From Rhynochetos jubatus (lineage: Eukaryota > Chordata > Aves > Eurypygiformes > Rhynochetidae), in NCBI GenBank assembly GCA_027574665.1, contig CM050656.1:9251501-9315500 (forward strand): 64,000 bases of DNA, in the 5' to 3' direction. Made by a program: the position numbers and the translations under genes. Under the pieces are notes generated by a model that did not search any database, was not told where the DNA came from, and was given only the letters and a program-made list of their open reading frames with translations. Of the stretch, positions 1-64,000 are shown piece by piece (the stretch's first letter is position 1; each line of letters opens with the position of its first letter).

Positions 1-369
1 GCCGACCGCGGTTTCCAGCCACGCCCCCCCCGCGTTCTGGCTAGGAAAGCTGGGGAGGGAGCCATGTCGGTGCAGTGTCGTGCTCCTCTTGGCAGGCCTT
101 TGCAATCCCAATTATCCCTGGAGCTGTGGGCTTTCTGGTTCTCCAGACCCTAACCCTAACCCTAACACTAGAAGTTGCCGACCGCGGTTTCCGGCCACGC
201 CCCCCCCGCGTTCTGGCTAGGAAAGCTGGGGAGGGAGCCATGTCGGTGCAGTGTCGTGCTCCTCTTGGCAGGCCTTTGCCATCCCAATTATCCCTGGAGC
301 TGTGGGCTTTCTGGTTCTCCAGACCCTAACCCTAACCCTAACCCTAGAAGTTGCCGACCGCGGTTTCCG

Positions 370-379
370 GCCACGCCCC
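370..379 (-). promoter_or_regulatory. GC-box/CACCC-type motif in each monomer (representative)
   Basis: The plus strand reads GCCACGCCCC; the minus strand GGGGCGTGGC fits the KLF-type GC-box consensus (GGGYGTGGY). In a recurrent subset the CpG is lost and the site becomes GCCACACCCC, seen near 1429, 3189, 13597, 15710, 31399, 44427, 47071, 48647, 49704 and 59375. That form still fits the consensus. Such motifs are common by chance in GC-rich DNA. No transcript or factor binding can be shown from sequence. Confidence 0.35.
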
Positions 380-383
380 CCCC
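376..383 (+). repeat. C-tract, the main length-variable site of the monomer
   Basis: Eight consecutive C follow CCACG in the commonest unit. Other units have nine or ten C, or are interrupted, for example by cccccgccggg, ccccccgtggg, cccccaccgcg, ccccaccccgcg, ccccctcggg or ccccccccttgcg. Most 1-3 bp differences in monomer length arise here, as expected for replication slippage at a homopolymer. Long-read and PCR errors also concentrate at such runs, so individual 1-bp differences should be treated cautiously. Differences shared by several ordered copies, such as ccaccccgcg, are unlikely to be errors. Confidence 0.9.
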
Positions 384-410
384 GCGTTCTGGCTAGGAAA
401 GCTGGGGAGG

Positions 411-453
411 GAGCCATGTCGGTGCAGTGTCGTGCTCCTCTTGGCAGGCCTTT
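411..453 (+). repeat. Nearly invariant block I of the monomer (positions 59-101)
   Basis: This 43-bp block (gagccatgtcgg, then tgcagtgtcgtgctcctc, then ttggcaggccttt) changes far less between copies than the head or C-tract. Recurrent exceptions are ctgctc for ctcctc at 85, tcagtg or ttggtg at 68-69, gtcgttctc at 82, aggtcttt at 97, gagaga at 59, and a 1-bp deletion giving gagcatg in five units (45997, 46172, 47573, 47748, 57601). Low variation here while nearby sites diverge could reflect constraint by a bound protein, or simply a lower mutation rate because only two CpGs and no homopolymer lie in it. Confidence 0.8.
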
Positions 454-463
454 GCAATGCCAA
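441..463. repeat. Short inverted repeat TTGGCA / TGCCAA with 11-bp spacer
   Basis: Monomer positions 89-94 (TTGGCA) and 106-111 (TGCCAA) are exact inverted complements. TTGGC/GCCAA are NFI half-site sequences, but the spacing is much longer than the N5 of a full NFI palindrome. Units with caatccc or ccatccc have lost the right arm, so the pairing is not conserved throughout. Chance occurrence of such a short inverted repeat in 176 bp is quite likely. Confidence 0.4.
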
Positions 464-464
464 T
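460..464 (+). promoter_or_regulatory. CCAAT pentamer in most monomers (representative)
   Basis: CCAAT lies at monomer positions 108-112 in both the caatgcc and caatccc/ccatccc subtypes. It is lost (TCAAT) in the aatgtc-attgtcc subtype at 1057, 2641, 11991, 12872 and 14985. It matches the NF-Y core, but the flanks (TG-CCAAT-TA) are not the full preferred context. The array spaces one such element every ~176 bp on the same strand. Function is conjecture. Confidence 0.25.
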
Positions 465-469
465 TATCC

Positions 470-498
470 CTGGAGCTGTGGGCTTTCTGGTTCTCCAG
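470..498. repeat. Short inverted repeat CTGGAG / CTCCAG with 17-bp spacer
   Basis: Monomer positions 118-123 and 141-146 are exact inverted complements and lie just before the telomeric tract. The arms are nearly invariant. Exceptions are the ctgaag units (for example 881, 2465, 11815, 12696, 14809) and the ctgggg units (3345, 10583, 13753, 15866). Ones of this size are expected by chance about once per unit, so no role is assigned. Confidence 0.4.
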
Positions 499-499
499 A

Positions 500-522
500 C
501 CCTAACCCTAACCCTAACCCTA
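500..522 (-). repeat. Interstitial telomeric tract, one per monomer (representative)
   Basis: On the plus strand the tract reads three CCCTAA units followed by CCCTA(G); on the minus strand it is TTAGGG in tandem. It recurs at monomer positions 148-170 in all 363 units, always in the same orientation. The minus strand contains overlapping matches to the YTAGGGTTR consensus bound by the Myb domains of TRF1/TRF2 in vertebrates. It also carries exactly four GGG runs with 3-nt loops, the minimum for an intramolecular G-quadruplex. Common variants are gacgctaac (first unit damaged) and aacactag (last unit damaged). Rarer ones are cccttacac near 9494, 13197 and 15310, aaacctag near 26430 and 27663, aactctag near 50553 and 60752, and a single ccgtaaccc near 7742. 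Binding and G4 formation are inferred from motif, not shown. Confidence 0.95.
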
Positions 523-1584
523 GAAGTTGTCGACCGCGGTTTCTGGTCACGCCCCCCCCGCGTTCTGGCTAGGAAAGCTGGGGAGGGAGCCATGTCGGTG
601 CAGTGTCGTGCTCCTCTTGGCAGGCCTTTGCAATGCCAATTATCCCTGGAGCTGTGGGCTTTCTGGTTCTCCAGACCCTAACCCTAACCCTAACCCTAGA
701 AGTTGCCGACCGCGCTTTCCGGCCACGCCCCCCCCGCGTTCTGGCTAGGAAAGCTGGGGAGGGAGCCATGTCGGTGCAGTGTCGTGCTCCTCTTGGCAGG
801 CCTTTGCAATCCCAATTATCCCTGGAGCTGTGGGCTTTCTGGTTCTCCAGACGCTAACCCTAACCCTAACCCTAGAAGTTGCCGACCGCGCTTTCCGGCC
901 ACGCCCCCCCCGCGTTCTGGCTAGGAAAGCTGGGGAGGGAGCCATGTCGGTGCAGTGTCGTGCTCCTCTTGGCAGGCCTTTGCAATGCCAATTATCCCTG
1001 AAGCTGTGGGCTTTCTGGTTCTCCAGACCCTAACCCTAACCCTAACCCTAGAAGTTGCCGACCGCGGTTTCCGTCCACGCCCCCCCCGCGTTCTGGCTAG
1101 GAAAGCTGGGGAGGGAGCCATGTCAGTGCAGTGTCGTGCTCCTCTTGGCAGGCCTTTGCAATGTCAATTGTCCCTGGAGCTGTGGGCTTTCTGGTTCTCC
1201 AGACCCTAACCCTAACCCTAACCCTAGAAGTTGCCGACCGCGGTTTCCGGCCACGCCCCCCCCGCGTTCTGGCTAGGAAAGCTTTGGAGGGAGCCATGTC
1301 GGTGCAGTGTCGTGCTCCTCTTGGCAGGCCTTTGCAATGCCAATTATCCCTGGAGCTGTGGGCTTTCTGGTTCTCCAGACGCTAACCCTAACCCTAACAC
1401 TAGAAGTTGCCGACCGCGGTTTCCGGCCACACCCCCCCCGCGTTCTGGCTAGGAAAGCTGGGGAGGGAGCCATGTCGGTGCAGTGTCGTGCTCCTCTTGG
1501 CAGGCCTTTGCAATGCCAATTATCCCTGGAGCTGTGGGCTTTCTGGTTCTCCAGACCCTAACCCTAACCCTAACCCTAGAAATT

Positions 1585-3696
1585 GCCGACCGCGCTTTCC
1601 GGCCACGCCCCTGCCGGGTTCTGGCCGGGAAAGCTGGGGAGGGAGCCATGTCGGTGCAGTGTCGTGCTCCTCTTGGCAGGCCTTTGCAATGCCAATTATC
1701 CCTGGAGCTGTGGGCTTTCTGGTTCTCCAGACCCTAACCCTAACCCTAACCCTAGAAGTTGCCGACCGCGGTTTCCAGCCACGCCCCCCCCGCGTTCTGG
1801 CTAGGAAAGCTGGGGAGGGAGCCATGTCGGTGCAGTGTCGTGCTCCTCTTGGCAGGCCTTTGCAATCCCAATTATCCCTGGAGCTGTGGGCTTTCTGGTT
1901 CTCCAGACCCTAACCCTAACCCTAACCCTAGAAGTTGCCGACCGCGGTTTCCGGCCACGCCCCCCCCGCGTTCTGGCTAGGAAAGCTGGGGAGGGAGCCA
2001 TGTCGGTGCAGTGTCGTGCTCCTCTTGGCAGGCCTTTGCAATGCCAATTATCCCTGGAGCTGTGGGCTTTCTGGTTCTCCAGACCCTAACCCTAACCCTA
2101 ACCCTAGAAGTTGCCGACCGCGGTTTCCGGCCACGCCCCCCCCGCGTTCTGGCTAGGAAAGCTGGGGAGGGAGCCATGTCGGTGCAGTGTCGTGCTCCTC
2201 TTGGCAGGCCTTTGCAATGCCAATTATCCCTGGAGCTGTGGGCTTTCTGGTTCTCCAGACCCTAACCCTAACCCTAACCCTAGAAGTTGTCGACCGCGGT
2301 TTCTGGTCACGCCCCCCCCGCGTTCTGGCTAGGAAAGCTGGGGAGGGAGCCATGTCGGTGCAGTGTCGTGCTCCTCTTGGCAGGCCTTTGCAATGCCAAT
2401 TATCCCTGGAGCTGTGGTCTTTCTGGTTCTCCAGACGCTAACCCTAACCCTAACCCTAGAAGTTGCCGACCGCGCTTTCCGGCCACGCCCCCCCCGCGTT
2501 CTGGCTAGGAAAGCTGGGGAGGGAGCCATGTCGGTGCAGTGTCGTGCTCCTCTTGGCAGGCCTTTGCAATGCCAATTATCCCTGAAGCTGTGGGCTTTCT
2601 GGTTCTCCAGACCCTAACCCTAACCCTAACCCTAGAAGTTGCCGACCGCGGTTTCCGGCCACGCCCCCCCCGCGTTCTGGCTAGGAAAGCTGGGGAGGGA
2701 GCCATGTCGGTGCAGTGTCGTGCTCCTCTTGGCAGGCCTTTGCAATGTCAATTGTCCCTGGAGCTGTGGGCTTTCTGGTTCTCCAGACCCTAACCCTAAC
2801 CCTAACCCTAGAAGTTGCCGACCGCCGTTTCCGGCCACGCCCCCCCCGCGTTCTGGCTAGGAAAGCTTTGGAGGGAGCCATGTCGGTGCAGTGTCGTGCT
2901 CCTCTTGGCAGGCCTTTGCAATGCCAATTATCCCTGGAGCTGTGGGCTTTCTGGTTCTCCAGACCCTAACCCTAACCCTAACCCTAGAAGTTGCCGACCG
3001 CCGTTTCCGGCCACGCCCCCCCCGCGTTCTGGCTAGGAAAGCTGGGGAGAGAGCCATGTCGGTGCAGTGTCGTGCTCCTCTTGGCAGGCCTTTGCAATGC
3101 CAATTATCCCTGGAGCTGTGGGCTTTCTGGTTCTCCAGACGCTAACCCTAACCCTAACACTAGAAGTTGCCGACCGCGGTTTCCGGCCACACCCCCCCCG
3201 CGTTCTGGCTAGGAAAGCTGGGGAGGGAGCCATGTCGGTGCAGTGTCGTGCTCCTCTTGGCAGGCCTTTGCAATGCCAATTATCCCTGGAGCTGTGGGCT
3301 TTCTGGTTCTCCAGACCCTAACCCTAACCCTAACCCTAGAAGTTGCCGACCGCGGTTTCCGGCCACGCCCCCCCCGGGTTCTGGCTAGGAAAGCTGGGGA
3401 GGGAGCCATGTCGGTGCAGTGTCGTGCTCCTCTTGGCAGGCCTTTGCAATGCCAATTATCCCTGGGGCTGTGGGCTTTCTGGTTCTCCAGACCCTAACCC
3501 TAACCCTAACCCTAGAAGTTGCCGACCGCGGTTTCCGGCCACGCCCCCCCCGCGTTCTGGCTAGGAAAGCTGGGGAGGGAGCCATGTCGGTGCAGTGTCG
3601 TGCTCCTCTTGGCAGGCCTTTGCAATGCCAATTATCCCTGGAGCTGTGGGCTTTCTGGTTCTCCAGACCCTAACCCTAACCCTAACCCTAGAAATT
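1585..3696 (+). repeat. 12-mer higher-order repeat, complete copy (2,112 bp)
   Basis: The anchor is a unit with gaaatt just upstream and ccgggaaag (start 1585). The next anchor of the same type is at 3697, exactly 12 x 176 bp away. Order: anchor; ccagcc (1761); two plain units; ctggtc with gtggtct/acgct (2289); gcgct/ctgaag (2465); attgtcc (2641); gccgtt/ctttggag (2817); gagaga with acgct/acact (2993); cacaccc (3169); gggttct/ctggggct (3345); plain (3521). The unit at 2289 combines a head and tail that are in separate neighbouring units at 14457 and 14633, so it looks recombinant. Confidence 0.85.
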
Positions 3697-4752: not shown

Positions 4753-6872
4753 GCCGACCGCGCTTTAAGGCCACGCCCCCGCCGGGTCCTGGCTAGGAAA
4801 GCTGGGGAGAGAGCCATGTCGGTGCAGTGTCGTGCTCCTCTTGGCAGGCCTTTGCAATGCCAATTATCCCTGGAGCTGTGGGCTTTCTGGTTCTCCAGAC
4901 CCTAACCCTAACCCTAACCCTAGAAGTTGCCGACCGCGCTTTCCGGCCACGCCCCCCAAGCGTTCTGGCTAGGAAAGCTGGAGAGGGAGCCATGTCGGTG
5001 CAGTGTCGTGCTCCTCTTGGCAGGCCTTTGCAATGCCAATTATCCCTGGAGCTGTGGGCTTTCTGGTTCTCCAGACCCTAACCCTAACCCTAACCCTAAC
5101 CCTAGAAGTTGCCGACCGCAGTTTCCGGCCACGCCCCCCGTGGGTTCTGGCTAGGAAAGCTGGGGAGGGAGCCATGTCGGTGCAGTGTCGTGCTCCTCTT
5201 GGCAGGCCTTTGCAATCCCAATTATCCCTGGAGCTGTGGGCTTTCTGGTTCTCCAGACCCTAACCCTAACCCTAACACTAGAAGTTGCCGACCGCGGTTT
5301 CTGGCCACGCCCCCACCGCGTTCTGGCTAGGAAAGCTGGGGAGGGAGCCATGTCGGTGCAGTGTCGTGCTCCTCTTGGCAGGCCTTTGCAATGCCAATTA
5401 TCCCTGGAGCTGTGGGCTTTCTGGTTCTCCAGACCCTAACCCTAACCCTAACCCTAGAAGTTGCCGACCGCGGTTTCCGGCCACGCCCCCCCCGCGTTCT
5501 GGCTAGGAAAGCTGGGGAGGGAGCCATGTCGGTGCAGTGTCGTGCTCCTCTTGGCAGGCCTTTGCAATGCCAATTATCCCTGGAGCTGTGGGCTTTCTGG
5601 TTCTCCAGACGCTAACCCTAACCCTAACCCTAGAAGTTGCCGACCGCGGTTTCTGGAAACGCCCCCCCCGCGTTCTGGCTAGGAAAGCTGGGGAGGGAGC
5701 CATGTCGGTGCAGTGTCGTGCTCCTCTTGGCAGGTCTTTGCAATGCCAATTATCCCTGGAGCTGTGGGCTTTCTGGTTCTCCAGACCCTAACCCTAACCC
5801 TAACCCTAGAAGTTGCCGACCGCGGTTTCCGGCCACGCCCCCCCCCCGCGTTCTGGCTAGGAAAGCTGGGGAGGGAGCCATGTCGGTGCAGTGTCGTGCT
5901 CCTCTTGGCAGGCCTTTGCAATGCCAATTATCCCTGGAGCTGTGGGCTTTCTGGTTCTCCAGACCATAACCCTAACCCTAACCCTAGAAATTGCCGACCG
6001 CGGTTTCCGGCCACGCCCCCCCGGGTTCTAGCCGGGAAAGCTGGGGAGGGAGCCATGTCGGTGCAGTGTCGTGCTGCTCTTGGCAGGCCTTTGCAATGCC
6101 AATTATCCCTGGAGCTGTGGGCTTTCTGGTTCTCCAGACCCTAACCCTAACCCTAACCCTAGAAGTTGCCGACCGCGGTTTCCGGCCACGCCCCCCCAGC
6201 GTTCTGGCTAGGAAAGCTGGGGAGAGAGCCATGTCGGTGCAGTGTCGTGCTGCTCTTGGCAGGCCTTTGCAATGCCAATTATCCCTGGAGCTGTGGGCTT
6301 TCTGGTTCTCCAGACCCTAACCCTAACCCTAACCCTAGAAGTTGCCGACCGCGCTTTCCGGCCACGCCCCCCCCGCGTTCTGGCTAGGAAAGCTGGGGAG
6401 GGAGCCATGTCGGTGCAGTGTCGTGCTCCTCTTGGCAGGCCTTTACAATGCCAATTATCCCTGGAGCTGTGGGCTTTCTGGTTCTCCAGACCCTAACCCT
6501 AACCCTAACCCTAGAAGTTGCCGACCGCGCTTTCCGGCCACGCCCCCGCCGGGTTCTGGCTAGGAAAGCTGGGGAGGGAGCCATGTCGGTGCAGTGTCGT
6601 GCTCCTCTTGGCAGGCCTTTGCAATGCCAATTATCCCTGGAGCTGTGGGCTTTCTGGTTCTCCAGACCCTAACCCTAACCCTAACCCTAGAAGTTGCCGA
6701 CCGTGGTTTCCGGCCACGCCCCACCCCGCGTTCTGGCTAGGAAAGCTGGGGAGGGAGCCATGTCGGTGCAGTGTCGTGCTCCTCTTGGCAGGCCTTTGCA
6801 ATGCCAATTATCCCTGGAGCTGTGGGCTTTCTGGTTCTCCAGACCCTAACCCTAACCCTAACCCTAGAAGTT
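4753..6872 (+). repeat. Cassette related to the 13-mer higher-order repeat (12 monomers)
   Basis: The anchor is the unusual gcgctttaagg head with ccgccgggtcct (4753). It is followed by ccccaagcg/ggagag with four CCCTAA units (4929, 182 bp), gcagttt/ccccccgtggg (5111), ctggcc/ccaccgcg (5287), plain with acgct (5463), ctggaaac with aggtcttt (5639), a long C-tract with accataac (5815), gaaatt/ctagccggg with ctgctc (5993), ccccagcg/gagaga (6168), gcgct (6344, 6520) and cgtggt/ccaccccgcg (6696). Tandem copies of this order are at 17274 and 19570. Confidence 0.85.
4929..5110 (+). repeat. 182-bp monomer with an extra telomeric unit
   Basis: This unit has four CCCTAA before CCCTAG, the longest telomeric tract in the window. 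The only others are at 17450-17631 and 19746-19927. All three have the ccccaagcg/ggagaggg body and are followed by a gcagttt unit. They are therefore copies of one expansion event spread by cassette duplication, not three separate slippages. Confidence 0.93.
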
Positions 6873-17273: not shown

Positions 17274-19569
17274 GCCGACCGCGCTTTAAGGCCACGCCCC
17301 CGCCGGGTCCTGGCTAGGAAAGCTGGGGAGAGAGCCATGTCGGTGCAGTGTCGTGCTCCTCTTGGCAGGCCTTTGCAATGCCAATTATCCCTGGAGCTGT
17401 GGGCTTTCTGGTTCTCCAGACCCTAACCCTAACCCTAACCCTAGAAGTTGCCGACCGCGCTTTCCGGCCACGCCCCCCAAGCGTTCTGGCTAGGAAAGCT
17501 GGAGAGGGAGCCATGTCGGTGCAGTGTCGTGCTCCTCTTGGCAGGCCTTTGCAATGCCAATTATCCCTGGAGCTGTGGGCTTTCTGGTTCTCCAGACCCT
17601 AACCCTAACCCTAACCCTAACCCTAGAAGTTGCCGACCGCAGTTTCCGGCCACGCCCCCCGTGGTTTCTGGCTAGGAAAGCTGGGGAGGGAGCCATGTCG
17701 GTGCAGTGTCGTGCTCCTCTTGGCAGGCCTTTGCAATCCCAATTATCCCTGGAGCTGTGGGCTTTCTGGTTCTCCAGACCCTAACCCTAACCCTAACCCT
17801 AGAAGTTGCCGACCGCGGTTTCCGGACACGCCCCCCCCGCGTTCTGGCTAGGAAAGCTGGGGAGGGAGCCATGTCGGTGCAGTGTCGTGCTCCTCTTGGC
17901 AGGCCTTTGCAATGCCAATTATCCCTGGAGCTGTGGGCTTTCTGGTTCTCCAGACCCTAACCCTAACCCTAACCCTAGAAGTTGCCGACCGCGGTTTCCG
18001 GCCACGCCCCCCCCGCGTTCTGGCTAGGAAAGCTGGGGAGGGAGCCATGTCGGTGCAGTGTCGTGCTCCTCTTGGCAGGCCTTTGCAATGCCAATTATCC
18101 CTGGAGCTGTGGGCTTTCTGGTTCTCCAGACGCTAACCCTAACCCTAACCCTAGAAGTTGCCGACCGCGGTTTCTGGAAACGCCCCCCCCGCGTTCTGGC
18201 TAGGAAAGCTGGGGAGGGAGCCATGTCGGTGCAGTGTCGTGCTCCTCTTGGCAGGTCTTTGCAATGCCAATTATCCCTGGAGCTGTGGGCTTTCTGGTTC
18301 TCCAGACCCTAACCCTAACCCTAACCCTAGAAGTTGCCGACCGCGGTTTCCGGCCACGCCCCCCCCCCGCGTTCTGGCTAGGAAAGCTGGGGAGGGAGCC
18401 ATGTCGGTGCAGTGTCGTGCTCCTCTTGGCAGGCCTTTGCAATGCCAATTATCCCTGGAGCTGTGGGCTTTCTGGTTCTCCAGACCATAACCCTAACCCT
18501 AACCCTAGAAATTGCCGACCGCGGTTTCCGGCCACGCCCCCCCGGGTTCTAGCCGGGAAAGCTGGGGAGGGAGCCATGTCGGTGCAGTGTCGTGCTGCTC
18601 TTGGCAGGCCTTTGCAATGCCAATTATCCCTGGAGCTGTGGGCTTTCTGGTTCTCCAGACCCTAACCCTAACCCTAACCCTAGAAGTTGCCGACCGCGCT
18701 TTCCGGCCACGCCCCCGCCGGGTTCTGGCTAGGAAAGCTGGGGAGGGAGCCATGTCGGTGCAGTGTCGTGCTCCTCTTGGCAGGCCTTTGCAATGCCAAT
18801 TATCCCTGGAGCTGTGGGCTTTCTGGTTCTCCAGACCCTAACCCTAACCCTAACCCTAGAAGTTGCCGACCGTGGTTTCCGGCCACGCCCCACCCCGCGT
18901 TCTGGCTAGGAAAGCTGGGGAGGGAGCCATGTCGGTGCAGTGTCGTGCTCCTCTTGGCAGGCCTTTGCAATGCCAATTATCCCTGGAGCTGTGGGCTTTC
19001 TGGTTCTCCAGACCCTAACCCTAACCCTAACCCTAGAAGTTGCCGACCGCGCTTTCCGGCCACGCCCCCGCCGGGTTCTGGCTAGGAAAGCTGGGGAGGG
19101 AGCCATGTCGGTGCAGTGTCGTGCTCCTCTTGGCAGGCCTTTGCAATGCCAATTATCCCTGGAGCTGTGGGCTTTCTGGTTCTCCAGACCCTAACCCTAA
19201 CCCTAACCCTAGAAGTTGTCGACCGCGGTTTCTGGTCACGCCCCCCCCGCGTTCTGGCTAGGAAAGCTGGGGAGGGAGCCATGTCGGTGCAGTGTCGTGC
19301 TCCTCTTGGCAGGCCTTTGCAATGCCAATTATCCCTGGAGCTGTGGGCTTTCTGGTTCTCCAGACCCTAACCCTAACCCTAACCCTAGAAGTTGCCGACC
19401 GCGGTTTCCGGCCACGCCCCCCCCGCGTTCTGGCTAGGAAAGCTGGGGAGGGAGCCATGTCGGTGCAGTGTCGTGCTCCTCTTGGCAGGCCTTTGCAATG
19501 CCAATTATCCCTGGAGCTGTGGGCTTTCTGGTTCTCCAGACCCTAACCCTAACCCTAACCCTAGAAGTT
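17274..19569 (+). repeat. 13-mer higher-order repeat, copy 1 (2,296 bp)
   Basis: Thirteen units from one gctttaagg anchor (17274) to the next (19570). The length is 13 x 176 + 8, explained by the 182-bp unit with an extra CCCTAA (17450) plus C-tract changes. Other members: gcagttt/cgtggtttc (17632), ccggacac (17808), plain/acgct (17984), ctggaaac (18160), long C-tract with accataac (18336), gaaatt/ctagccggg (18514), gcgct/gccggg (18689), cgtggt/ccaccccgcg (18865), gcgct/gccggg (19042), ctggtc (19218), plain (19394). Confidence 0.9.
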
Positions 19570-22393
19570 GCCGACCGCGCTTTAAGGCCACGCCCCCGCC
19601 GGGTCCTGGCTAGGAAAGCTGGGGAGAGAGCCATGTCGGTGCAGTGTCGTGCTCCTCTTGGCAGGCCTTTGCAATGCCAATTATCCCTGGAGCTGTGGGC
19701 TTTCTGGTTCTCCAGACCCTAACCCTAACCCTAACCCTAGAAGTTGCCGACCGCGCTTTCCGGCCACGCCCCCCAAGCGTTCTGGCTAGGAAAGCTGGAG
19801 AGGGAGCCATGTCGGTGCAGTGTCGTGCTCCTCTTGGCAGGCCTTTGCAATGCCAATTATCCCTGGAGCTGTGGGCTTTCTGGTTCTCCAGACCCTAACC
19901 CTAACCCTAACCCTAACCCTAGAAGTTGCCGACCGCAGTTTCCGGCCACGCCCCCCGTGGTTTCTGCCTAGGAAAGCTGGGGAGGGAGCCATGTCGGTGC
20001 AGTGTCGTGCTCCTCTTGGCAGGCCTTTGCAATCCCAATTATCCCTGGAGCTGTGGGCTTTCTGGTTCTCCAGACCCTAACCCTAACCCTAACCCTAGAA
20101 GTTGCCGACCGCGGTTTCCGGACACGCCCCCACCGCGTTCTGGCTAGGAAAGCTGGGGAGGGAGCCATGTCGGTGCAGTGTCGTGCTCCTCTTGGCAGGC
20201 CTTTGCAATGCCAATTATCCCTGGAGCTGTGGGCTTTCTGGTTCTCCAGACCCTAACCCTAACCCTAACCCTAGAAGTTGCCGACCGCGGTTTCCGGCCA
20301 CGCCCCCCCCGCGTTCTGGCTAGGAAAGCTGGGGAGGGAGCCATGTCGGTGCAGTGTCGTGCTCCTCTTGGCAGGCCTTTGCAATGCCAATTATCCCTGG
20401 AGCTGTGGGCTTTCTGGTTCTCCAGACGCTAACCCTAACCCTAACCCTAGAAGTTGCCGACCGCGGTTTCTGGAAACGCCCCCCCCGCGTTCTGGCTAGG
20501 AAAGCTGGGGAGGGAGCCATGTCGGTGCAGTGTCGTGCTCCTCTTGGCAGGTCTTTGCAATGCCAATTATCCCTGGAGCTGTGGGCTTTCTGGTTCTCCA
20601 GACCCTAACCCTAACCCTAACCCTAGAAGTTGCCGACCGCGGTTTCCGGCCACGCCCCCCCCCCGCGTTCTGGCTAGGAAAGCTGGGGAGGGAGCCATGT
20701 CGGTGCAGTGTCGTGCTCCTCTTGGCAGGCCTTTGCAATGCCAATTATCCCTGGAGCTGTGGGCTTTCTGGTTCTCCAGACCATAACCCTAACCCTAACC
20801 CTAGAAATTGCCGACCGCGGTTTCCGGCCACGCCCCCCCGGGTTCTAGCCGGGAAAGCTGGGGAGGGAGCCATGTCGGTGCAGTGTCGTGCTGCTCTTGG
20901 CAGGCCTTTGCAATGCCAATTATCCCTGGAGCTGTGGGCTTTCTGGTTCTCCAGACCCTAACCCTAACCCTAACCCTAGAAGTTGCCGACCGCGGTTTCC
21001 GGCCACGCCCCCCCAGCGTTCTGTCTAGGAAAGCTGGGGAGAGAGCCATGTCGGTGCAGTGTCGTGCTGCTCTTGGCAGGCCTTTGCAATGCCAATTATC
21101 CCTGGAGCTGTGGGCTTTCTGGTTCTCCAGACCCTAACCCTAACCCTAACCCTAGAAGTTGCCGACCGCGCTTTCCGGCCACGCCCCCGCCGGGTTCTGG
21201 CTAGGAAAGCTGGGGAGGGAGCCATGTCGGTGCAGTGTCGTGCTCCTCTTGGCAGGCCTTTGCAATCCCAATTATCCCTGGAGCTGTGGGCTTTCTGGTT
21301 CTCCAGACCCTAACCCTAACCCTAACCCTAGAAGTTGCCGACCGTGGTTTCCGGCCACGCCCCACCCCGCGTTCTGGCTAGGAAAGCTGGGGAGGGAGCC
21401 ATGTCGGTGCAGTGTCGTGCTCCTCTTGGCAGGCCTTTGCAATGCCAATTATCCCTGGAGCTGTGGGCTTTCTGGTTCTCCAGACCCTAACCCTAACCCT
21501 AACCCTAGAAGTTGCCGACCGCGCTTTCCGGCCACGCCCCCGCCGGGTTCTGGCTAGGAAAGCTGGGGAGGGAGCCATGTCGGTGCAGTGTCGTGCTGCT
21601 CTTGGCAGGCCTTTGCAATGCCAATTATCCCTGGAGCTGTGGGCTTTCTGGTTCTCCAGACCCTAACCCTAACCCTAACCCTAGAAGTTGCCGACCGCGG
21701 TTTCCGGCCACGCCCCCCCCGCGTTCTGGCTAGGAAAGCTGGGGAGGGAGCCATGTCGGTGCAGTGTCGTGCTCCTCTTGGCAGGCCTTTGCCATCCCAA
21801 TTATCCCTGGAGCTGTGGGCTTTCTGGTTCTCCAGACCCTAACCCTAACCCTAACCCTAGAAGTTGCCGACCGCGGTTTCCGGCCACGCCCCCCCCGCGT
21901 TCTGGCTAGGAATGCTGGGGAGGGAGCCATGTCGGTGCAGTGTCGTGCTCCTCTTGGCAGGCCTTTGCAATGCCAATTATCCCTGGAGCTGTGGGCTTTC
22001 TGGTTCTCCAGACCCTAACCCTAACCCTAACCCTAGAAGTTGTCGACCGCGGTTTCTGGTCACGCCCCCCCCGCGTTCTGGCTAGGAAAGCTGGGGAGGG
22101 AGCCATGTCGGTGCAGTGTCGTGCTCCCCTTGGCAGGCCTTTGCAATGCCAATTATCCCTGGAGCTGTGGGCTTTCTGGTTCTCCAGACCCTAACCCTAA
22201 CCCTAACCCTAGAAGTTGCCGACCGCGGTTTCCGGCCACGCCCCCCCCGCGTTCTGGCTAGGAAAGCTGGGGAGGGAGCCATGTCGGTGCAGTGTCGTGC
22301 TCCTCTTGGCAGGCCTTTGCAATGCCAATTATCCCTGGAGCTGTGGGCTTTCTGGTTCTCCAGACCCTAACCCTAACCCTAACCCTAGAAGTT
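19570..22393 (+). repeat. 13-mer higher-order repeat, copy 2, extended (16 monomers)
   Basis: The order of copy 1 is repeated at an offset of 2,296 bp through the gaaatt/ctagccggg unit (20810). An additional unit with ccccagcg/gagaga (20985) then shifts the rest to 2,472 bp. The same additional unit is present at 6168, so it was probably lost from copy 1 rather than gained here. Differences from copy 1 include tttctgccta for tttctggcta near 19963 and ccaccgcg at 20104. After 21690 the order changes to ccatccc, aatgctgg, ctggtc with gctcccc, and plain. Confidence 0.87.
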
Positions 22394-24330
22394 GCCGACC
22401 GCAGTTTCCGGCCACGCCCCCCGTGGGTTCTGGCTAGGAAAGCTGGGGAGGGAGCCATGTCGGTGCAGTGTCGTGCTCCTCTTGGCAGGCCTTTGCAATG
22501 CCAATTATCCCTGGAGCTGTGGGCTTTCTGGTTCTCCAGACCCTAACCCTAACCCTAACCCTAGAAGTTGCCGACCGCGGTTTCCGGCCACGCCCCCCCC
22601 GCGTTCTGGCTAGGAAAGCTGGGGAGGGAGCCATGTCGGTGCAGTGTCGTGCTCCTCTTGGCAGGCCTTTGCAATGCCAATTATCCCTGGAGCTGTGGGC
22701 TTTCTGGTTCTCCAGACCCTAACCCTAACCCTAACCCTAGAAGTTGCCGACCGCGGTTTCCGGCCACGCCCCCCCCGCGTTCTGGCTAGGAAAGCTGGGG
22801 AGGGAGCCATGTCGGTGCAGTGTCGTGCTCCTCTTGGCAGGCCTTTGCAATGCCAATTATCCCTGGAGCTGTGGGCTTTCTGGTTCTCCAGACCCTAACC
22901 CTAACCCTAACCCTAGAAGTTGCCGACCGCGGTTTCCGGCCACGCCCCCCCCGGGTTCTGGCTAGGAAAGCTGGGGAGAGAGCCATGTCGGTGCAGTGTC
23001 GTGCTCCTCTTGGCAGGCCTTTGCAATGCCAATTATCCCTGGAGCTGTGGGCTTTCTGGTTCTCCAGACCCTAACCCTAACCCTAACCCTAGAAGTTGCC
23101 GACCGCGGTTTCCGGCCACGCCCCCCCCGCGTTCTGGCTAGGAAAGCTGGGGAGGGAGCCATGTCGGTGCAGTGTCGTGCTCCTCTTGGCAGGCCTTTGC
23201 CATCCCAATTATCCCTGGAGCTGTGGGCTTTCTGGTTCTCCAGACCCTAACCCTAACCCTAACCCTAGAAGTTGCCGACCGCGGTTTCCGGCCACGCCCC
23301 CCCCGCGTTCTGGCTAGGAAAGCTGGGGAGGGAGCCATGTCGGTGCAGTGTCGTGCTCCTCTTGGCAGGCCTTTACAATCCCAATTATCCCTGGAGCTGT
23401 GGGCTTTCTGGTTCTCCAGACCCTAACCCTAACCCTAACCCTAGAAGTTGCCGACCGCGGTTTCCGGCCACGCCCCCCCCGCGTTCTGGCTAGGAAAGCT
23501 GGGGAGGGAGCCATGTCGGTGCAGTGTCGTGCTCCTCTTGGCAGGCCTTTGCAATGCCAATTATCCCTGGAGCTGTGGGCTTTCTGGTTCTCCAGACCCT
23601 AACCCTAACCCTAACCCTAGAAATTGCCGACCGCGGTTTCCGGCCACGGCCCCCCCGCGTTCTAGCCGGGAAAGCTGGGGAGGGAGCCATGTCGGTGCAG
23701 TGTCGTGCTGCTCTTGGCAGGCCTTTGCAATGCCAATTATCCCTGGAGCTGTGGGCTTTCTGGTTCTCCAGACCCTAACCCTAACCCTAACCCTAGAAGT
23801 TGCCGACCGCGGTTTCCGGCCACGCCCCCCCAGCGTTCTGGCTAGGAAAGCTGGGGAGAGAGCCATGTCGGTGCAGTGTCGTGCTGCTCTTGGCAGGCCT
23901 TTGCAATGCCAATTATCCCTGGAGCTGTGGGCTTTCTGGTTCTCCAGACCCTAACCCTAACCCTAACCCTAGAAGTTGCCGACCGTGGTTTCCGGCCACG
24001 CCCCACCCCGCGTTCTGGCTAGGAAAGCTGGGGAGGGAGCCATGTCGGTGCAGTGTCGTGCTCCTCTTGGCAGGCCTTTGCAATGCCAATTATCCCTGGA
24101 GCTGTGGGCTTTCTGGTTCTCCAGACCCTAACCCTAACCCTAACCCTAGAAGTTGCCGACCGCGCTTTCCGGCCACGCCCCCGCCGGGTTCTGGCTAGGA
24201 AAGCTGGGGAGGGAGCCATGTCGGTGCAGTGTCGTGCTCCTCTTGGCAGGCCTTTGCAATGCCAATTATCCCTGGAGCTGTGGGCTTTCTGGTTCTCCAG
24301 ACCCTAACCCTAACCCTAACCCTAGAAGTT
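22394..24330 (+). repeat. 11-mer higher-order repeat, copy 1 (1,937 bp)
   Basis: Eleven units: gcagttt/ccccccgtggg (22394), two plain units, gggttct/gagaga (22922), ccatccc (23098), acaatccc (23274), plain (23450), gaaatt with cacggcc and ctagccggg (23626), ccccagcg/gagaga (23802), cgtggt/ccaccccgcg (23978) and gcgct/gccggg (24155). The next copy begins immediately. By eye I find no difference between the two copies at any diagnostic site, so this is the youngest-looking duplication in the window. Confidence 0.92.
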
Positions 24331-26267
24331 GCCGACCGCAGTTTCCGGCCACGCCCCCCGTGGGTTCTGGCTAGGAAAGCTGGGGAGGGAGCCATGTCGG
24401 TGCAGTGTCGTGCTCCTCTTGGCAGGCCTTTGCAATGCCAATTATCCCTGGAGCTGTGGGCTTTCTGGTTCTCCAGACCCTAACCCTAACCCTAACCCTA
24501 GAAGTTGCCGACCGCGGTTTCCGGCCACGCCCCCCCCGCGTTCTGGCTAGGAAAGCTGGGGAGGGAGCCATGTCGGTGCAGTGTCGTGCTCCTCTTGGCA
24601 GGCCTTTGCAATGCCAATTATCCCTGGAGCTGTGGGCTTTCTGGTTCTCCAGACCCTAACCCTAACCCTAACCCTAGAAGTTGCCGACCGCGGTTTCCGG
24701 CCACGCCCCCCCCGCGTTCTGGCTAGGAAAGCTGGGGAGGGAGCCATGTCGGTGCAGTGTCGTGCTCCTCTTGGCAGGCCTTTGCAATGCCAATTATCCC
24801 TGGAGCTGTGGGCTTTCTGGTTCTCCAGACCCTAACCCTAACCCTAACCCTAGAAGTTGCCGACCGCGGTTTCCGGCCACGCCCCCCCCGGGTTCTGGCT
24901 AGGAAAGCTGGGGAGAGAGCCATGTCGGTGCAGTGTCGTGCTCCTCTTGGCAGGCCTTTGCAATGCCAATTATCCCTGGAGCTGTGGGCTTTCTGGTTCT
25001 CCAGACCCTAACCCTAACCCTAACCCTAGAAGTTGCCGACCGCGGTTTCCGGCCACGCCCCCCCCGCGTTCTGGCTAGGAAAGCTGGGGAGGGAGCCATG
25101 TCGGTGCAGTGTCGTGCTCCTCTTGGCAGGCCTTTGCCATCCCAATTATCCCTGGAGCTGTGGGCTTTCTGGTTCTCCAGACCCTAACCCTAACCCTAAC
25201 CCTAGAAGTTGCCGACCGCGGTTTCCGGCCACGCCCCCCCCGCGTTCTGGCTAGGAAAGCTGGGGAGGGAGCCATGTCGGTGCAGTGTCGTGCTCCTCTT
25301 GGCAGGCCTTTACAATCCCAATTATCCCTGGAGCTGTGGGCTTTCTGGTTCTCCAGACCCTAACCCTAACCCTAACCCTAGAAGTTGCCGACCGCGGTTT
25401 CCGGCCACGCCCCCCCCGCGTTCTGGCTAGGAAAGCTGGGGAGGGAGCCATGTCGGTGCAGTGTCGTGCTCCTCTTGGCAGGCCTTTGCAATGCCAATTA
25501 TCCCTGGAGCTGTGGGCTTTCTGGTTCTCCAGACCCTAACCCTAACCCTAACCCTAGAAATTGCCGACCGCGGTTTCCGGCCACGGCCCCCCCGCGTTCT
25601 AGCCGGGAAAGCTGGGGAGGGAGCCATGTCGGTGCAGTGTCGTGCTGCTCTTGGCAGGCCTTTGCAATGCCAATTATCCCTGGAGCTGTGGGCTTTCTGG
25701 TTCTCCAGACCCTAACCCTAACCCTAACCCTAGAAGTTGCCGACCGCGGTTTCCGGCCACGCCCCCCCAGCGTTCTGGCTAGGAAAGCTGGGGAGAGAGC
25801 CATGTCGGTGCAGTGTCGTGCTGCTCTTGGCAGGCCTTTGCAATGCCAATTATCCCTGGAGCTGTGGGCTTTCTGGTTCTCCAGACCCTAACCCTAACCC
25901 TAACCCTAGAAGTTGCCGACCGTGGTTTCCGGCCACGCCCCACCCCGCGTTCTGGCTAGGAAAGCTGGGGAGGGAGCCATGTCGGTGCAGTGTCGTGCTC
26001 CTCTTGGCAGGCCTTTGCAATGCCAATTATCCCTGGAGCTGTGGGCTTTCTGGTTCTCCAGACCCTAACCCTAACCCTAACCCTAGAAGTTGCCGACCGC
26101 GCTTTCCGGCCACGCCCCCGCCGGGTTCTGGCTAGGAAAGCTGGGGAGGGAGCCATGTCGGTGCAGTGTCGTGCTCCTCTTGGCAGGCCTTTGCAATGCC
26201 AATTATCCCTGGAGCTGTGGGCTTTCTGGTTCTCCAGACCCTAACCCTAACCCTAACCCTAGAAGTT
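24331..26267 (+). repeat. 11-mer higher-order repeat, copy 2 (1,937 bp)
   Basis: A direct tandem copy of 22394-24330 with all eleven units in the same order and the same rare variants, including cacggcc at 25563 and acaatccc at 25211. The similarity ends at 26268, where a ccatccc unit with aaacctag follows instead of a third gcagttt unit. Very recent duplication is the simplest reading; an assembly or read-overlap duplication cannot be excluded. Confidence 0.92.
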
Positions 26268-28732
26268 GCCGACCGCGGTTTCCGGCCACGCCCCCCCCGC
26301 GTTCTGGCTAGGAAAGCTGGGGAGGGAGCCATGTCGGTGCAGTGTCGTGCTCCTCTTGGCAGGCCTTTGCCATCCCAATTATCCCTGGAGCTGTGGGCTT
26401 TCTGGTTCTCCAGACCCTAACCCTAACCCTAAACCTAGAAGTTGCCGACCGCGGTTTCCGGCCACGCCCCCCCCGCGTTCTGGCTAGGAATGCTGGGGAG
26501 GGAGCCATGTCGGTGCAGTGTCGTGCTCCTCTTGGCAGGCCTTTGCAATGCCAATTATCCCTGGAGCTGTGGGCTTTCTGGTTCTCCAGACCCTAACCCT
26601 AACCCTAACCCTAGAAGTTGTCGACCGCGGTTTCTGGTCACGCCCCCCCCGCGTTCTGGCTAGGAAAGCTGGGGAGGGAGCCATGTCGGTGCAGTGTCGT
26701 GCTCCCCTTGGCAGGCCTTTGCAATGCCAATTATCCCTGGAGCTGTGGGCTTTCTGGTTCTCCAGACCCTAACCCTAACCCTAACCCTAGAAGTTGCCGA
26801 CCACGGTTTCCGGCCACGCCCCCCCCGCGTTCTGGCTAGGAAAGCTGGGGAGGGAGCCATGTCGGTGCAGTGTCGTGCTCCTCTTGGCAGGCCTTTACAA
26901 TGCCAATTATCCCTGGAGCTGTGGGCTTTCTGGTTCTCCAGACCCTAACCCTAACCCTAACCCTAGAAGTTGCCGACCGCGGTTTCCGGCCACGCCCCCG
27001 CCGGGTTCTGGCTAGGAAAGCTGGGGAGGGAGCCATGTCGGTGCAGTGTCGTGCTCCTCTTGGCAGGCCTTTGCAATGCCAATTATCCCTGGAGCTGTGG
27101 GCTTTCTGGTTCTCCAGACCCTAACCCTAACCCTAACCCTAGAAGTTGCCGACCGTCGTTTCCGGCCACGCCCCACCCCGCGTTCTGGCTAGGAAAGCTG
27201 GGGAGGGAGCCATGTCGGTGCAGTGTCGTGCTCCTCTTGGCAGGCCTTTGCAATGCCAATTATCCCTGGAGCTGTGGGCTTTCTGGTTCTCCAGACCCTA
27301 ACCCTAACCCTAACCCTAGAAGTTGCCGACCGCGCTTTCCGGCCACGCCCCCGCCGGGTTCTGGCTAGGAAAGCTGGGGAGGGAGCCATGTCGGTGCAGT
27401 GTCGTGCTCCTCTTGGCAGGCCTTTGCAATGCCAATTATCCCTGGAGCTGTGGGCTTTCTGGTTCTCCAGACCCTAACCCTAACCCTAACCCTAGAAGTT
27501 GCCGACCGCGGTTTCCGGCCACGCCCCCCCCGCGTTCTGGCTAGGAAAGCTGGGGAGGGAGCCATGTCGGTGCAGTGTCGTGCTCCTCTTGGCAGGCCTT
27601 TGCCATCCCAATTATCCCTGGAGCTGTGGGCTTTCTGGTTCTCCAGACCCTAACCCTAACCCTAAACCTAGAAGTTGCCGACCGCGGTTTCCGGCCACGC
27701 CCCCCCCGCGTTCTGGCTAGGAATGCTGGGGAGGGAGCCATGTCGGTGCAGTGTCGTGCTCCTTTTGGCAGGCCTTTGCAATGCCAATTATCCCTGGAGC
27801 TGTGGGCTTTCTGGTTCTCCAGACCCTAACCCTAACCCTAACCCTAGAAGTTGTCGACCGCGGTTTCTGGTCACGCCCCCCCCGCGTTCTGGCTAGGAAA
27901 GCTGGGGAGGGAGCCATGTCGGTGCAGTGTCGTGCTCCCCTTGGCAGGCCTTTGCAATGCCAATTATCCCTGGAGCTGTGGGCTTTCTGGTTCTCCAGAC
28001 CCTAACCCTAACCCTAACCCTAGAAGTTTCCGACCGCGCTTTCCGGCCACGCCCCCGCCGGGTTCTGGCTAGGAAAGCTGGGGAGGGAGCCATGTCGGTG
28101 CAGTGTCGTGCTCCTCTTGACAGGCCTTTGCAATGCCAATTATCCCTGGAGCTGTGGGCTTTCTGGTTCTCCAGACCCTAACCCTAACCCTAACCCTAGA
28201 AGTTGCCGACCGCGGTTTCCGGCCACGCCTCCCCCGCGTTCTGGCTAGGAATGCTGGGGAGGGAGCCATGTCGGTGCAGTGTCGTGCTCCTCTTGGCAGG
28301 CCTTTGCAATGCCAATTATCCCTGGAGCTGTGGGCTTTCTGGTTCTCCAGACCCTAACCCTAACCCTAACCCTAGAAGTTGTCGACCGCGGTTTCTGGTC
28401 ACGCCCCCCCCGCGTTCTGGCTAGGAAAGCTGGGGAGGGAGCCATGTCGGTGCAGTGTCGTGCTCCCCTTGGCAGGCCTTTGCAATGCCAATTATCCCTG
28501 GAGCTGTGGGCTTTCTGGTTCTCCAGACCCTAACCCTAACCCTAACCCTAGAAGTTGCCGACCGCGGTTTCCGGCCACGCCCCCCCCGCGTTCTGGCTAG
28601 GAAAGCTGGGGAGGGAGCCATGTCGGTGCAGTGTCGTGCTCCTCTTGGCAGGCCTTTGCAATGCCAATTATCCCTGGAGCTGTGGGCTTTCTGGTTCTCC
28701 AGACCCTAACCCTAACCCTAACCCTAGAAGTT
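26268..28732 (+). repeat. Nested 7-mer and 3-mer duplications (14 monomers)
   Basis: The run gcgct/gccggg, ccatccc with aaacctag, aatgctgg, ctggtc with gctcccc occurs at 26092-26795 and again at 27325-28028, offset 1,233 bp (7 monomers + 1). The last two of these types recur again at 28205 and 28381, offset 528 bp (3 monomers). Private changes mark individual units: ccttttggc (27677), gtttccgacc (28029), cttgacagg (near 28118), cgcctccccc (28205). The rare aaacctag telomeric variant is shared only by the units at 26268 and 27501. Confidence 0.87.
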
Positions 28733-60762: not shown

Positions 60763-61996
60763 GCCGACCGCGGTTTCTGGCCACGCCCCGCCCCGCGTTC
60801 TGGCTAGGAAAGCTGGGGAGGGAGCCATGTCGGTGCAGTGTCGTGCTCCTCTTGGCAGGCCTTTGCAATGCCAATTATCCCTGGAGCTGTGGGCTTTCTG
60901 GTTCTCCAGACCCTAACCCTAACCCTAACCCTAGAAGTTGCCGACCGCGGTTTCCGGCCACGCCCCCGCCGGGTTCTGGCTAGGAAAGCTGGGGAGGGAG
61001 CCATGTCGGTGCAGTGTCGTGCTCCTCTTGGCAGGCCTTTGCAATCCCAATTATCCCTGGAGCTGTGGGCTTTCTGGTTCTCCAGACCCTAACCCTAACC
61101 CTAACCCTAGAAGTTGCCGACCGCGGTTTCCGGCCACGCCCCCCCCGCATTCTGGCTAGGAAAGCTGGGGAGGGAGCCATGTCGGTGCAGTGTCGTGCTC
61201 CTCTTGGCAGGCCTTTGCAATGCCAATTATCCCTGGAGCTGTGGGCTTTCTGGTTCTCCAGACCCTAACCCTAACCCTAACCCTAGAAGTTGCCGACCGC
61301 GGTTTCCGGCCACGCCCCCCCCCGCGTTCTGGCTAGGAAAGCTGGGGAGGGAGCCATGTCGGTGCAGTGTCGTGCTCCTCTTGGCAGGCCTTTGCAATGC
61401 CAATTATCCCTGGAGCTGTGGGCTTTCTGGTTCTCCAGACCCTAACCCTAACCCTAACCCTAGAAGTTGCCGACCGCGGTTTCCGGCCACGCCCCCCCCG
61501 CGTTCTGGCTAGGAAAGCTGGGGAGGGAGCCATGTCGGTGCAGTGTCGTGCTCCTCTTGGCAGGCCTTTGCAATCCCAATTATCCCTGGAGCTGTGGGCT
61601 TTCTGGTTCTCCAGACGCTAACCCTAACCCTAACCCTAGAAGTTGCCGACCGCGGTTTCCGGCCACGCCCCCCCCGCGTTCTGGCTAGGAAAGCTGGGGA
61701 GAGAGCCATGTCGGTGCAGTGTCGTGCTCCTCTTGGCAGGCCTTTGCCATCCCAATTATCCCTGGAGCTGTGGGCTTTCTGGTTCTCCAGACCCTAACCC
61801 TAACCCTAACCCTAGAAGTTGCCGACCGCGGTTTCCGGCCACGCCCCCCCCGCGTTCTGGCTAGGAAAGCTGGGGAGGGAGCCATGTCGGTGCAGTGTCG
61901 TGCTCCTCTTGGCAGGCCTTTGCAATGCCAATTATCCCTGGAGCTGTGGGCTTTCTGGTTCTCCAGACCCTAACCCTAACCCTAACCCTAGAAGTT
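60763..61996 (+). repeat. Copy of 50564-51797 (7 monomers)
   Basis: Seven units in the same order as 50564-51797, 10,199 bp away, starting with ctggcc/ccgccccgcg after aactctag. One unit differs by gacgctaac (near 61615) where the other copy has the intact first telomeric unit. Confidence 0.88.
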
Positions 61997-63932
61997 GCCG
62001 ACCGCGGTTTCCGGCCACGCCCCCCCCGCGTTCTGGCTAGGAAAGCTGGGGAGGGAGCCATGTCAGTGCAGTGTCGTTCTCCTCTTGGCAGGCCTTTGCA
62101 ATGCCAATTATCCCTGGAGCTGTGGGCTTTCTGGTTCTCCAGACCCTAACCCTAACCCTAACCCTAGAAGTTGACGACCGCGGTTTCCGGCCACGCCCCC
62201 CCCGCATTCTGGCTAGGAAAGCTGGGGAGGGAGCCATGTCGGTGCAGTGTCGTGCTCCTCTTGGCAGGCCTTTGCAATGCCAATTATCCCTGGAGCTGTG
62301 GGCTTTCTGGTTCTCCAGACCCTAACCCTAACCCTAACCCTAGAAGTTGCCGACCGCGGTTTCCGGCCACGCCCCCCCCGCGTTCTGGCTAGGAAAGCTG
62401 GGGAGGGAGCCATGTCGGTGCAGTGTCGTGCTCCTCTTGGCAGGCCTTTGCAATGCCAATTATCCCTGGAGCTGTGGGCTTTCTGGTTCTCCAGACCCTA
62501 ACCCTAACCCTAACCCTAGAAGTTGCCGACGGCGGTTTCCGGCCACGCCCCCCCCGCGTTCTGGCTAGGAAAGCTGGGGAGGGAGCCATGTCGGTGCAGT
62601 GTCGTGCTCCTCTTGGCAGGCCTTTGCAATGCCAATTATCCCTGGAGCTGTGGGCTTTCTGGTTCTCCAGACCCTAACCCTAACCCTAACCCTAGAAGTT
62701 GCCGACCGCGGTTTCCGGCCACGCCCCCCCCGCGTTCTGGCTAGGAAAGCTGGGGAGGGAGCCATGTTGGTGCAGTGTCGTGCTCCTCTTGGCAGGCCTT
62801 TGCAATGCCAATTGTCCCTGGAGCTGTGGGCTTTCTGGTTCTCCAGACCCTAACCCTAACCCTAACCCTAGAAGTTGACGACCGCGGTTTCCGGCCACGC
62901 CCCCCCCGCGTTCTGGCTAGGAAAGCTGGGGAGGGAGCCATGTCGGTGCAGTGTCGTGCTCCTCTTGGCAGGCCTTTGCAATCCCAATTATCCCTGGAGC
63001 TGTGGGCTTTCTGGTTCTCCAGACCCTAACCCTAACCCTAACCCTAGAAGTTGCCGACCGCGGTTTCCGGCCACGCCCCCCCCGCGTTCTTGCTAGGAAA
63101 GCTGGGGAGGGAGCCATGTCGGTGCAGTGTCGTGCTCCTCTTGGCAGGCCTTTGCAATGCCAATTATCCCTGGAGCTGTGGGCTTTCTGGTTCTCCAGAC
63201 GCTAACCCTAACCCTAACCCTAGAAGTTGCCGACCGCGGTTTCCGGCCACGCCCCCCCCGCGTTCTGGCTAGGAAAGCTGGGGAGGGAGCCATGTCGGTG
63301 CAGTGTCGTGCTCCTCTTGGCAGGCCTTTGCAATGCCAATTATCCCTGGAGCTGTGGGCTTTCTGGTTCTCCAGACCCTAACCCTAACCCTAACCCTAGA
63401 AATTGCCGACGGCGCTTTCCGGCCACGCCCCCCCCGGGTTCTAGCCGGGAAAGCTGGGGAGGGAGCCATGTCGGTGCAGTGTCGTGCTCCTCTTGGCAGG
63501 CCTTTGCAATGCCAATTATCCCTGGAGCTGTGGGCTTTCTGGTTCTCCAGACCCTAACCCTAACCCTAACCCTAGAAGTTGACGACCGCGGTTTCCGGCC
63601 ACGCCCCCCCCGCGTTCTGGCTAGGAAAGCTGGGGAGGGAGCCATGTCGGTGCAGTGTCGTGCTCCTCTTGGCAGGCCTTTGCAATGCCAATTATCCCTG
63701 GAGCTGTGGGCTTTCTGGTTCTCCAGACCCTAACCCTAACCCTAACCCTAGAAGTTGCCGACCGCGGTTTCCGGCCACGCCCCCGCCGGGTTCTGGCTAG
63801 GAAAGCTGGGGAGGGAGCCATGTCGGTGCAGTGTCGTGCTCCTCTTGGCAGGCCTTTGCAATGCCAATTATCCCTGGAGCTGTGGGCTTTCTGGTTCTCC
63901 AGACCCTAACCCTAACCCTAACCCTAGAAGTT
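61997..63932 (+). repeat. Mosaic satellite segment (11 monomers)
   Basis: A tgtcagtg/gtcgttctc unit (61997) followed by gttgacgacc/gcattct (62173) repeats the pair at 52855-53208. Further gttgacgacc heads are at 62877 and 63581. The unit at 63053 has gttcttgctagg, as at 53736, and 63405 has gaaatt/gacggcgc/ctagccggg, resembling the unit near 53912. Thus 52.8-54.3 kb and 62.0-63.9 kb share ancestry, with small rearrangements. Confidence 0.84.
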
Positions 63933-64000
63933 GCCGACCGCGGTTTCCGGCCACGCCCCCCCCGCGTTCTGGCTAGGAAAGCTGGGGAGGGAGCCATGTC
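63933..64000 (+). repeat. Partial monomer at the window edge (68 bp)
   Basis: Positions 1-68 of a plain monomer, cut by the window end at gagccatgtc. The array therefore continues to the right. The left edge likewise begins inside the array, at monomer position 1 by coincidence of the chosen ruler. Confidence 0.97.

Follow-up and report, generated by a model that had tools for sequence, protein, structure and literature searches.

A 176-bp satellite with a telomeric tract in every unit read and its candidate centromeric arrays in a bird-like genome

The window examined here, a 64,000-bp stretch of contig C11 (C11:9251501-9315500; C11 measures 34.9 Mb in a genome of 1.331 Gb and 148 contigs), is occupied over its whole length by a tandem satellite whose 176-bp monomer joins a GC-rich 153-bp body to a 23-bp telomeric tract. 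Tandem Repeats Finder (TRF) reported one array spanning positions 1-64000, with a period of 176, 363.4 copies and 96% matches, and fuzzy anchoring located 363 unit starts delimiting 362 full units at a spacing of 170-182 bp, 299 of which measured exactly 176 bp. The window contains the following features, all on the plus strand.

1..64000, plus strand: satellite array of the 176-bp unit in a single orientation, a slice of C11 array A (TRF and anchoring)
148..170, plus strand: first telomeric tract in the window, CCCTAACCCTAACCCTAACACTA, with one C to A change
171..323, plus strand: example of a 153-bp unit body
324..346, plus strand: example of an intact 23-bp tract, CCCTAACCCTAACCCTAACCCTA, with four CCC runs (the 23-bp length being that of 611 of 634 units, see below)
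5075..5104, plus strand: tract expanded to five telomeric repeats (TRF)
17596..17625, plus strand: tract expanded to five telomeric repeats (TRF)
19892..19921, plus strand: tract expanded to five telomeric repeats (TRF)
22251..24339, plus strand: longest exact tandem duplication, copy 1
24188..26276, plus strand: longest exact tandem duplication, copy 2, overlapping copy 1

The telomeric core TAACCCTAA was present in all 362 full units, at the same place and on the same strand (719 overlapping occurrences), which bears out the claim of the first-pass annotation that CCCTAA repeats occupy a fixed position and orientation in every unit. Its estimate of about 8.7 kb of telomeric DNA was roughly right but slightly high, as perfect telomeric hexamers amounted to 8,513 bases on one strand and zero on the opposite one, and the pure 64-kb array that it described is indeed uninterrupted but represents a slice of an array of about 0.60 Mb. 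A perfect CCCTAACCCTAACCCTAACCC, with four CCC runs in telomeric spacing, was found in 311 of the 362 units. When the window was combined with 272 units from 12 other stretches of C11, the tract measured 23 bp in 611 of the 634 units, the remainder having 17 bp (13 units), 29 bp (7), 11 bp (2) or 32 bp (1); tract length thus changes mostly by steps of six, a sign of hexamer slippage, and C11 is homogenised at four hexamers.

Window units showed a mean identity of 98.3% to their consensus and of 96.9% to each other, and comprised 191 distinct monomers in one cutting register and 181 in another. The longest exact tandem duplication found in the window was 2,089 bp long, at an offset of 11 units (1,937 bp), and in 30 shuffles identical units ran to 3 at most. 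A search for higher-order repeats in the window gave flat lag identities (0.968-0.971) and block duplications only. Concerted evolution, recent block duplication and tract slippage are all visible in the array. Identical runs 84 units (14,817 bp) apart were also noticed in the window, and matches of one variant repeat in C13:8338186-8392796 were offset by 14,764 bp, likewise close to 84 units. The single-strand fold of one unit was unremarkable (z -1.13), positions 1-4000 of the window gave no Rfam match at gathering score, and a 28-mer had 0 matches in viral and 0 in prokaryotic contigs. With long head-to-tail arrays of a homogeneous unit the element is satellite DNA, and with telomeric repeats at a non-terminal site it is also an interstitial telomeric sequence.

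On C11, which starts with 2.5 kb of N followed by telomeric repeats, the window lies within array A, extending from about 8,739,655 to between 9,339,000 and 9,340,000 (satellite coverage at array edges and contig ends being counted on the body only). This array is interrupted at 9,332.4-9,337.7 kb, and by eye C11:9335000-9337748 (L026:1-2749) resembles part of an endogenous retrovirus on the minus strand. A second array, B, of 0.26-0.31 Mb starts at 13.72-13.74 Mb and ends at 14.00-14.025 Mb. Between them no satellite was found in any of ten 4-kb samples (9.36-13.70 Mb), nor in further short samples at 9.340-9.355 Mb (five) and 13.72 Mb (one).

The family extends far beyond C11. An exact 35-base stretch of the body occurred 74,723 times in the genome (40,076 and 34,647 copies on the two strands; reversed control, 0), which would amount to about 13 Mb, or 1% of the assembly, at 176 bp per copy. 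Allowing up to 3 mismatches, a 42-base stretch gave 34,142 and 27,071 matches, and the tract with its flanks 29,457 and 26,057. With 4,059 copies on one strand and 157 on the opposite one, the exact C11-type 42-mer was comparatively rare, which places most copies elsewhere in other subfamilies. Nine chromosomes of 10-35 Mb were seen to carry arrays (C11, C13, C19, C20, C21, C22, C23, C27 and C28), in a genome whose contig sizes (148.6, 135.8, 126.0, 79.2, 77.5, 63.6, 43.5 and 42.6 Mb and down, and another of 85.2 Mb) resemble those of a bird with a passerine-like karyotype. Among the matches listed, C1-C10 held 13 isolated exact 35-mers, none in a long array, a figure that assumes listing in contig order.

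Two subfamilies were distinguished, the type 1 of the window and a type 2 (copy at C22:8000) 85-90% identical to it, which carries an imperfect tract, CGCTAACCCTAGCCCTAACCCTAA, at the same place. The best 40 of 194 candidates for a type-1 query fell on C19, C20, C21, C22, C23, C27, C28 and four small contigs, and the best 40 of 1,659 for a type-2 query on C20, C21, C22, C23, C27, C28 and three small contigs; the C13 array was found through a pattern search. The exact type-2 41-mer had 6,287 and 6,536 copies on the two strands, the first among the matches listed being on C16 (one) and C20. A 124-kb contig contained telomere-like variant repeats, TAGGGTGTTAT..., at C44:8000-8399 (L085).

The arrays share a common anatomy. 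Each appears to extend over several hundred kb, either in the interior of a contig or at an end where the contig breaks off within the satellite, and sampling met a single site on eight of the nine chromosomes and two on C11. In five arrays (C20, C21, C23, C27 and C28) a type-1 core is flanked on both sides by type 2, that is, by older or different layers. On C20, for instance, a first type-2 stretch at 6.2-20.1 kb is followed by type 1, read at ten sites between 25 and 515 kb, and by a second type-2 stretch reaching from 669.6 to about 735 kb, with other DNA at 760 kb. C22 showed type 2 and then type 1, one side being seen, and C11, C13 and C19 type 1 only. The contigs C19, C21, C22 and C23 end within the satellite, and no terminal telomere run was found beside arrays at the five contig ends read. 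C20 starts with about 6 kb of a very GC-rich minisatellite, GGCGGGGCTTAAGGGGCGAGG... (L176:1-6160), directly before its 176-bp array.

Together, the older layers around a core, the apparently single site per chromosome and the assembly breaks within arrays make up the anatomy expected of a centromeric satellite. Judging from this anatomy, we consider it rather likely that on a set of smaller chromosomes the family makes up the centromeric arrays, whether these bear the kinetochore or lie immediately beside it. Several points weigh against this interpretation. The chromosomes were sampled at points, so that array continuity and the single site per chromosome are extrapolated, and the probes of chromosome ends covered 0.4-6 kb each. 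Two arrays 4.4 Mb apart lie on C11. The first ten contigs, which include the largest chromosomes, had no exact-35-mer arrays among the matches listed, so their centromeres must consist of something else. Any large array may develop layered edges. Finally, the CENP-B box had 0 matches in the window at up to 1 mismatch and 4 at 2 mismatches; this box is present in some centromeric satellite families and is not obligatory.

Besides the arrays, the genome contains dispersed copies, of which we collected 29 loci: 11 covering the 13 matches on C1-C10, one on C11 and 17 retrieved by a second motif (37 matches, 21 of them in fetched loci; the 16 on C32, C35, C36, C80 and C120 were left out). They are mini-arrays of 0.6-13.8 units, 85-96% identical to their own consensus, and by pattern reading their tracts contain 1-4 hexamers, with 16 of 80 pattern matches showing no hexamer and taken as faulty without individual checking. 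A tract or its remnant, judged partly by eye, was present at the same place in all 29 fragments. Being found in old dispersed and young copies, the tract belongs to the ancestral unit of the family, and the earlier view of it as an integral part of the monomer holds from every window unit through the imperfect tract of the diverged subfamily to these fragments.

The edges of the dispersed copies were then compared with 600 simulated cuts. Their 3' edges fell inside the tract in 15 of 28 cases, against 21.8% in the simulation (p=0.0002), or in 14 of 27 when a duplicate locus was removed (p=0.0006), both results being exploratory; inspection by eye shows that L123, at least, among the fifteen tract-edge cases runs on past the tract. 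No tract preference was seen for the 5' edges (5 of 27, p=0.45). A test against a flat expectation (15 of 28, p=8e-8) was discarded as too lenient, because alignments stop early in a variable region and the loci had been picked by motif. In this exploratory analysis, the 3'-edge excess would fit a spread of the family by break repair joining at telomeric repeats, a route proposed for mammalian interstitial telomeres in one account (PMC7215372). The duplicate locus, L146 (C48:85152300-85154000) and L150 (C46:744600-745800), is the same insertion with the same edges and was counted as one; it lies on contigs of 85 Mb and 16.5 Mb, perhaps in a region common to the sex chromosomes.

Why every unit carries a telomeric tract may have a simple answer, to which we give an even chance and which is compatible with centromeric arrays: the tract would be neutral debris, a chance telomeric insertion in one monomer carried along by concerted evolution. 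Mean site diversity was 0.0145 in the tract, 0.0040 in the preceding 15 bp, 0.0610 in the 61 bp that follow and 0.0166 in the remaining 77 bp; the tract value is not exceptional among unit parts, lying between those of its neighbours and near that of the other 77 bp, and therefore gives no sequence sign of special selection. In the same direction, hexamer number varies among dispersed copies and type 2 forms arrays despite its imperfect tract. The presence of the tract in all copy classes examined and the fixation of the four-repeat form in 611 of 634 C11 units could be held against neutrality but are compatible with it all the same.

A more specific origin for the tract was considered because insertions combining telomeric repeats with telomerase RNA sequence are described in mouse and horse (PMC7215372), and the unit was accordingly compared with the telomerase RNA gene (TERC) of this genome. 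That gene was located at C12:20191256-20191785 (L171) as a single Rfam match of 135.6 bits with the template CTAACCCTAAT. If the unit descended from a piece of TERC, its tract would be a fossil template. Aligned from the TERC template onward, the dispersed consensus scored 35.5, with 56 of 70 aligned columns agreeing (gaps left out), a score reached by 0 of 3,000 shuffles of either sequence and by about 1 in 2,344 overlapping real GC-rich windows. Type 1 was weaker (p 0.012-0.019 over three nulls) and type 2 null (p 0.29-0.32), and such falling scores from dispersed copies to type 1 to type 2 are expected if the dispersed form is ancestral.

This significant result is confined to the part downstream of the tract, and it comes from an anchored test run once the alignment had already been seen. 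Neither the 3' half of the unit (p=0.82) nor the stretch upstream of the tract (p=0.23) matched TERC beyond chance, and an unanchored local alignment gave a marginal p of 0.05, which rose to 0.22 when TERC was the shuffled sequence (a second run was similar). Rfam at E values up to 10 found no telomerase RNA and no match at all in positions 1-1000 of the window, and on L081, L125, L127 and L136 it gave four matches, all with E >1 and below gathering score, none of them to telomerase RNA. Used as a DNA query, TERC matched only itself in the genome, with no second TERC-like locus, and its conserved pseudoknot core had no counterpart in the unit. A word of the unit resembling the CR7 region of TERC (p=0.006 for one chosen 35-mer pair) was dropped, the whole 3' half being null. 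We therefore regard descent from telomerase RNA as unlikely, and the same doubt applies to the fuller scenario in which a probably centromeric family of about 13 Mb would have arisen from a telomerase RNA gene fragment and its dispersed copies would have been propagated by joining events at the tract.

It also appears improbable that the family is a subtelomeric satellite, with the tract a captured telomere and the C11, C13 and C27 arrays made internal by fusion or inversion. Several arrays do lie at contig ends, and array strand agrees with the telomere polarity of its side on 8 of the 9 chromosomes (plus on the left on C11, C13, C20 and C22, minus on the right on C21, C23, C27 and C28; one-sided binomial p about 0.02, found after the fact). 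However, C19 contradicts this polarity rule, to which we give little weight because four of the nine arrays stand at broken contig ends: those of C19, C21, C22 and C23 are breaks inside an array and not chromosome ends. The C11, C13 and C27 arrays lie megabases inside. Subtelomeric satellites adjoin terminal telomeres, often at both ends, and no such arrangement was seen at the ends tested; away from the arrays, the ends of C11, C20, C21, C22, C23 and C27 carried no 176-bp satellite, the far ends of C13 and C19 being outside the sample. A second satellite, with a 472-bp unit and 89-99% alike, was found instead at one end of C11, C20, C23 and C27. The ends of C21 and C22 and the right one of C27 showed other DNA, and C28 read as N at its left end. 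At the right end of C11 (L038, C11:34932000-34938080) this 472-bp satellite had 99% matches, and it was also met on C9, C10, C27 (at 8 kb), C67, the right end of C20 and the left end of C23 (89%), occurring at the ends of other chromosomes and on small contigs.

An assembly or synthetic artefact, a concatemer of the kind the first-pass annotation had raised, is vanishingly improbable, since beyond the great regularity of the unit we found nothing in its favour and it is contradicted by unique flanks, many distinct monomers, subfamilies on nine chromosomes and older dispersed copies. We take the repeat to be a satellite family that is native to a bird-like genome and fairly old.

Human alpha satellite has a nucleosome-sized unit and a core flanked by older layers, and FA-SAT, the major satellite of the cat, has a 483-bp unit with TAACCC-like hexamers. 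Compared by description only, FA-SAT differs from the present family in length and is not known to have a single intact tract at a fixed place. The 176-bp family resembles alpha satellite in its nucleosome-sized unit and layered core and differs from it in its GC richness, its telomeric tract and its want of a clear higher-order repeat or CENP-B box. The alpha satellite monomer is given as 171 bp (PMC9498494), and FA-SAT is described as GC-rich with preferred telomeric or centromeric sites (PMC6379292). Telomeric repeats in centromeric regions are reported for the frog Boana faber, where they are perhaps part of centromeric satellite units (PMC9693754), and for Solanum, whose functional centromeres were invaded by them (PMC5615363); compared with these cases, the monomer is here read base by base, with a 23-bp tract, an unrelated body, dated layers and a bird-like genome. 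Mammalian interstitial telomeric sequences share the internal repeats, sometimes beside telomerase RNA sequence, and are described as short single insertions (PMC7215372), whereas here a repeated unit reaches about 13 Mb in all.

Among birds, the TleSat families of the thrush Turdus leucomelas include some that are centromeric and some restricted to microchromosomes, and nine of their unit lengths (1220, 145, 1644, 23, 21, 645, 103, 419 and 638 bp), which alone were compared, do not include 176 (PMC11375038). A review states that birds usually show terminal telomeric signals only (PMC9693754). Large arrays bearing telomeric repeats are not a general feature of songbirds, since telomeric fluorescence in situ hybridisation gave no interstitial signal in two nightingales according to one report (PMC8687609). 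The suggestion that the monomer is undescribed was not refuted, but only weakly tested: six 19-21-base stretches (both strands of three) had 0 matches in 5.39 million open-access full texts, with Dfam, Repbase, GenBank and supplements outside the scope of the search, and no title or abstract among the open-access papers listed by literature searches named such a satellite.

If the arrays are indeed centromeric, the type-1 core would carry CENP-A. Unequal exchange or break-induced replication in the core probably keeps the arrays homogeneous, and unequal exchange there has probably fixed the tract at four repeats on C11. The tract could in principle form a G-quadruplex or i-motif, and would offer TRF1/TRF2-type sites in every nucleosome-sized unit. 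It might stall replication and so favour the exchange by which the array is amplified, or it might attract shelterin; these roles are conjecture because the tract is not exceptionally conserved and shows no visible selection.

Were these arrays the centromeres, telomeric motifs and potential G-quadruplexes would stand in every unit at or beside the kinetochore, and a single abundant repeat might unite DNA of the ends and of the centres of chromosomes. An estimated total of up to 1.7 Mb of telomere-like DNA (74,723 copies of 23 bp) would lie outside the telomeres. Should the telomerase RNA origin be true, the DNA of chromosome centres would trace back to a gene that makes chromosome ends, a novel way for a satellite to arise. 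With centromeric arrays, the family would provide a natural test of how cells separate telomeres from internal telomeric DNA and of whether telomeric motifs drive satellite amplification, as well as of whether TTAGGG probes and read-based telomere lengths mislead in the source species.

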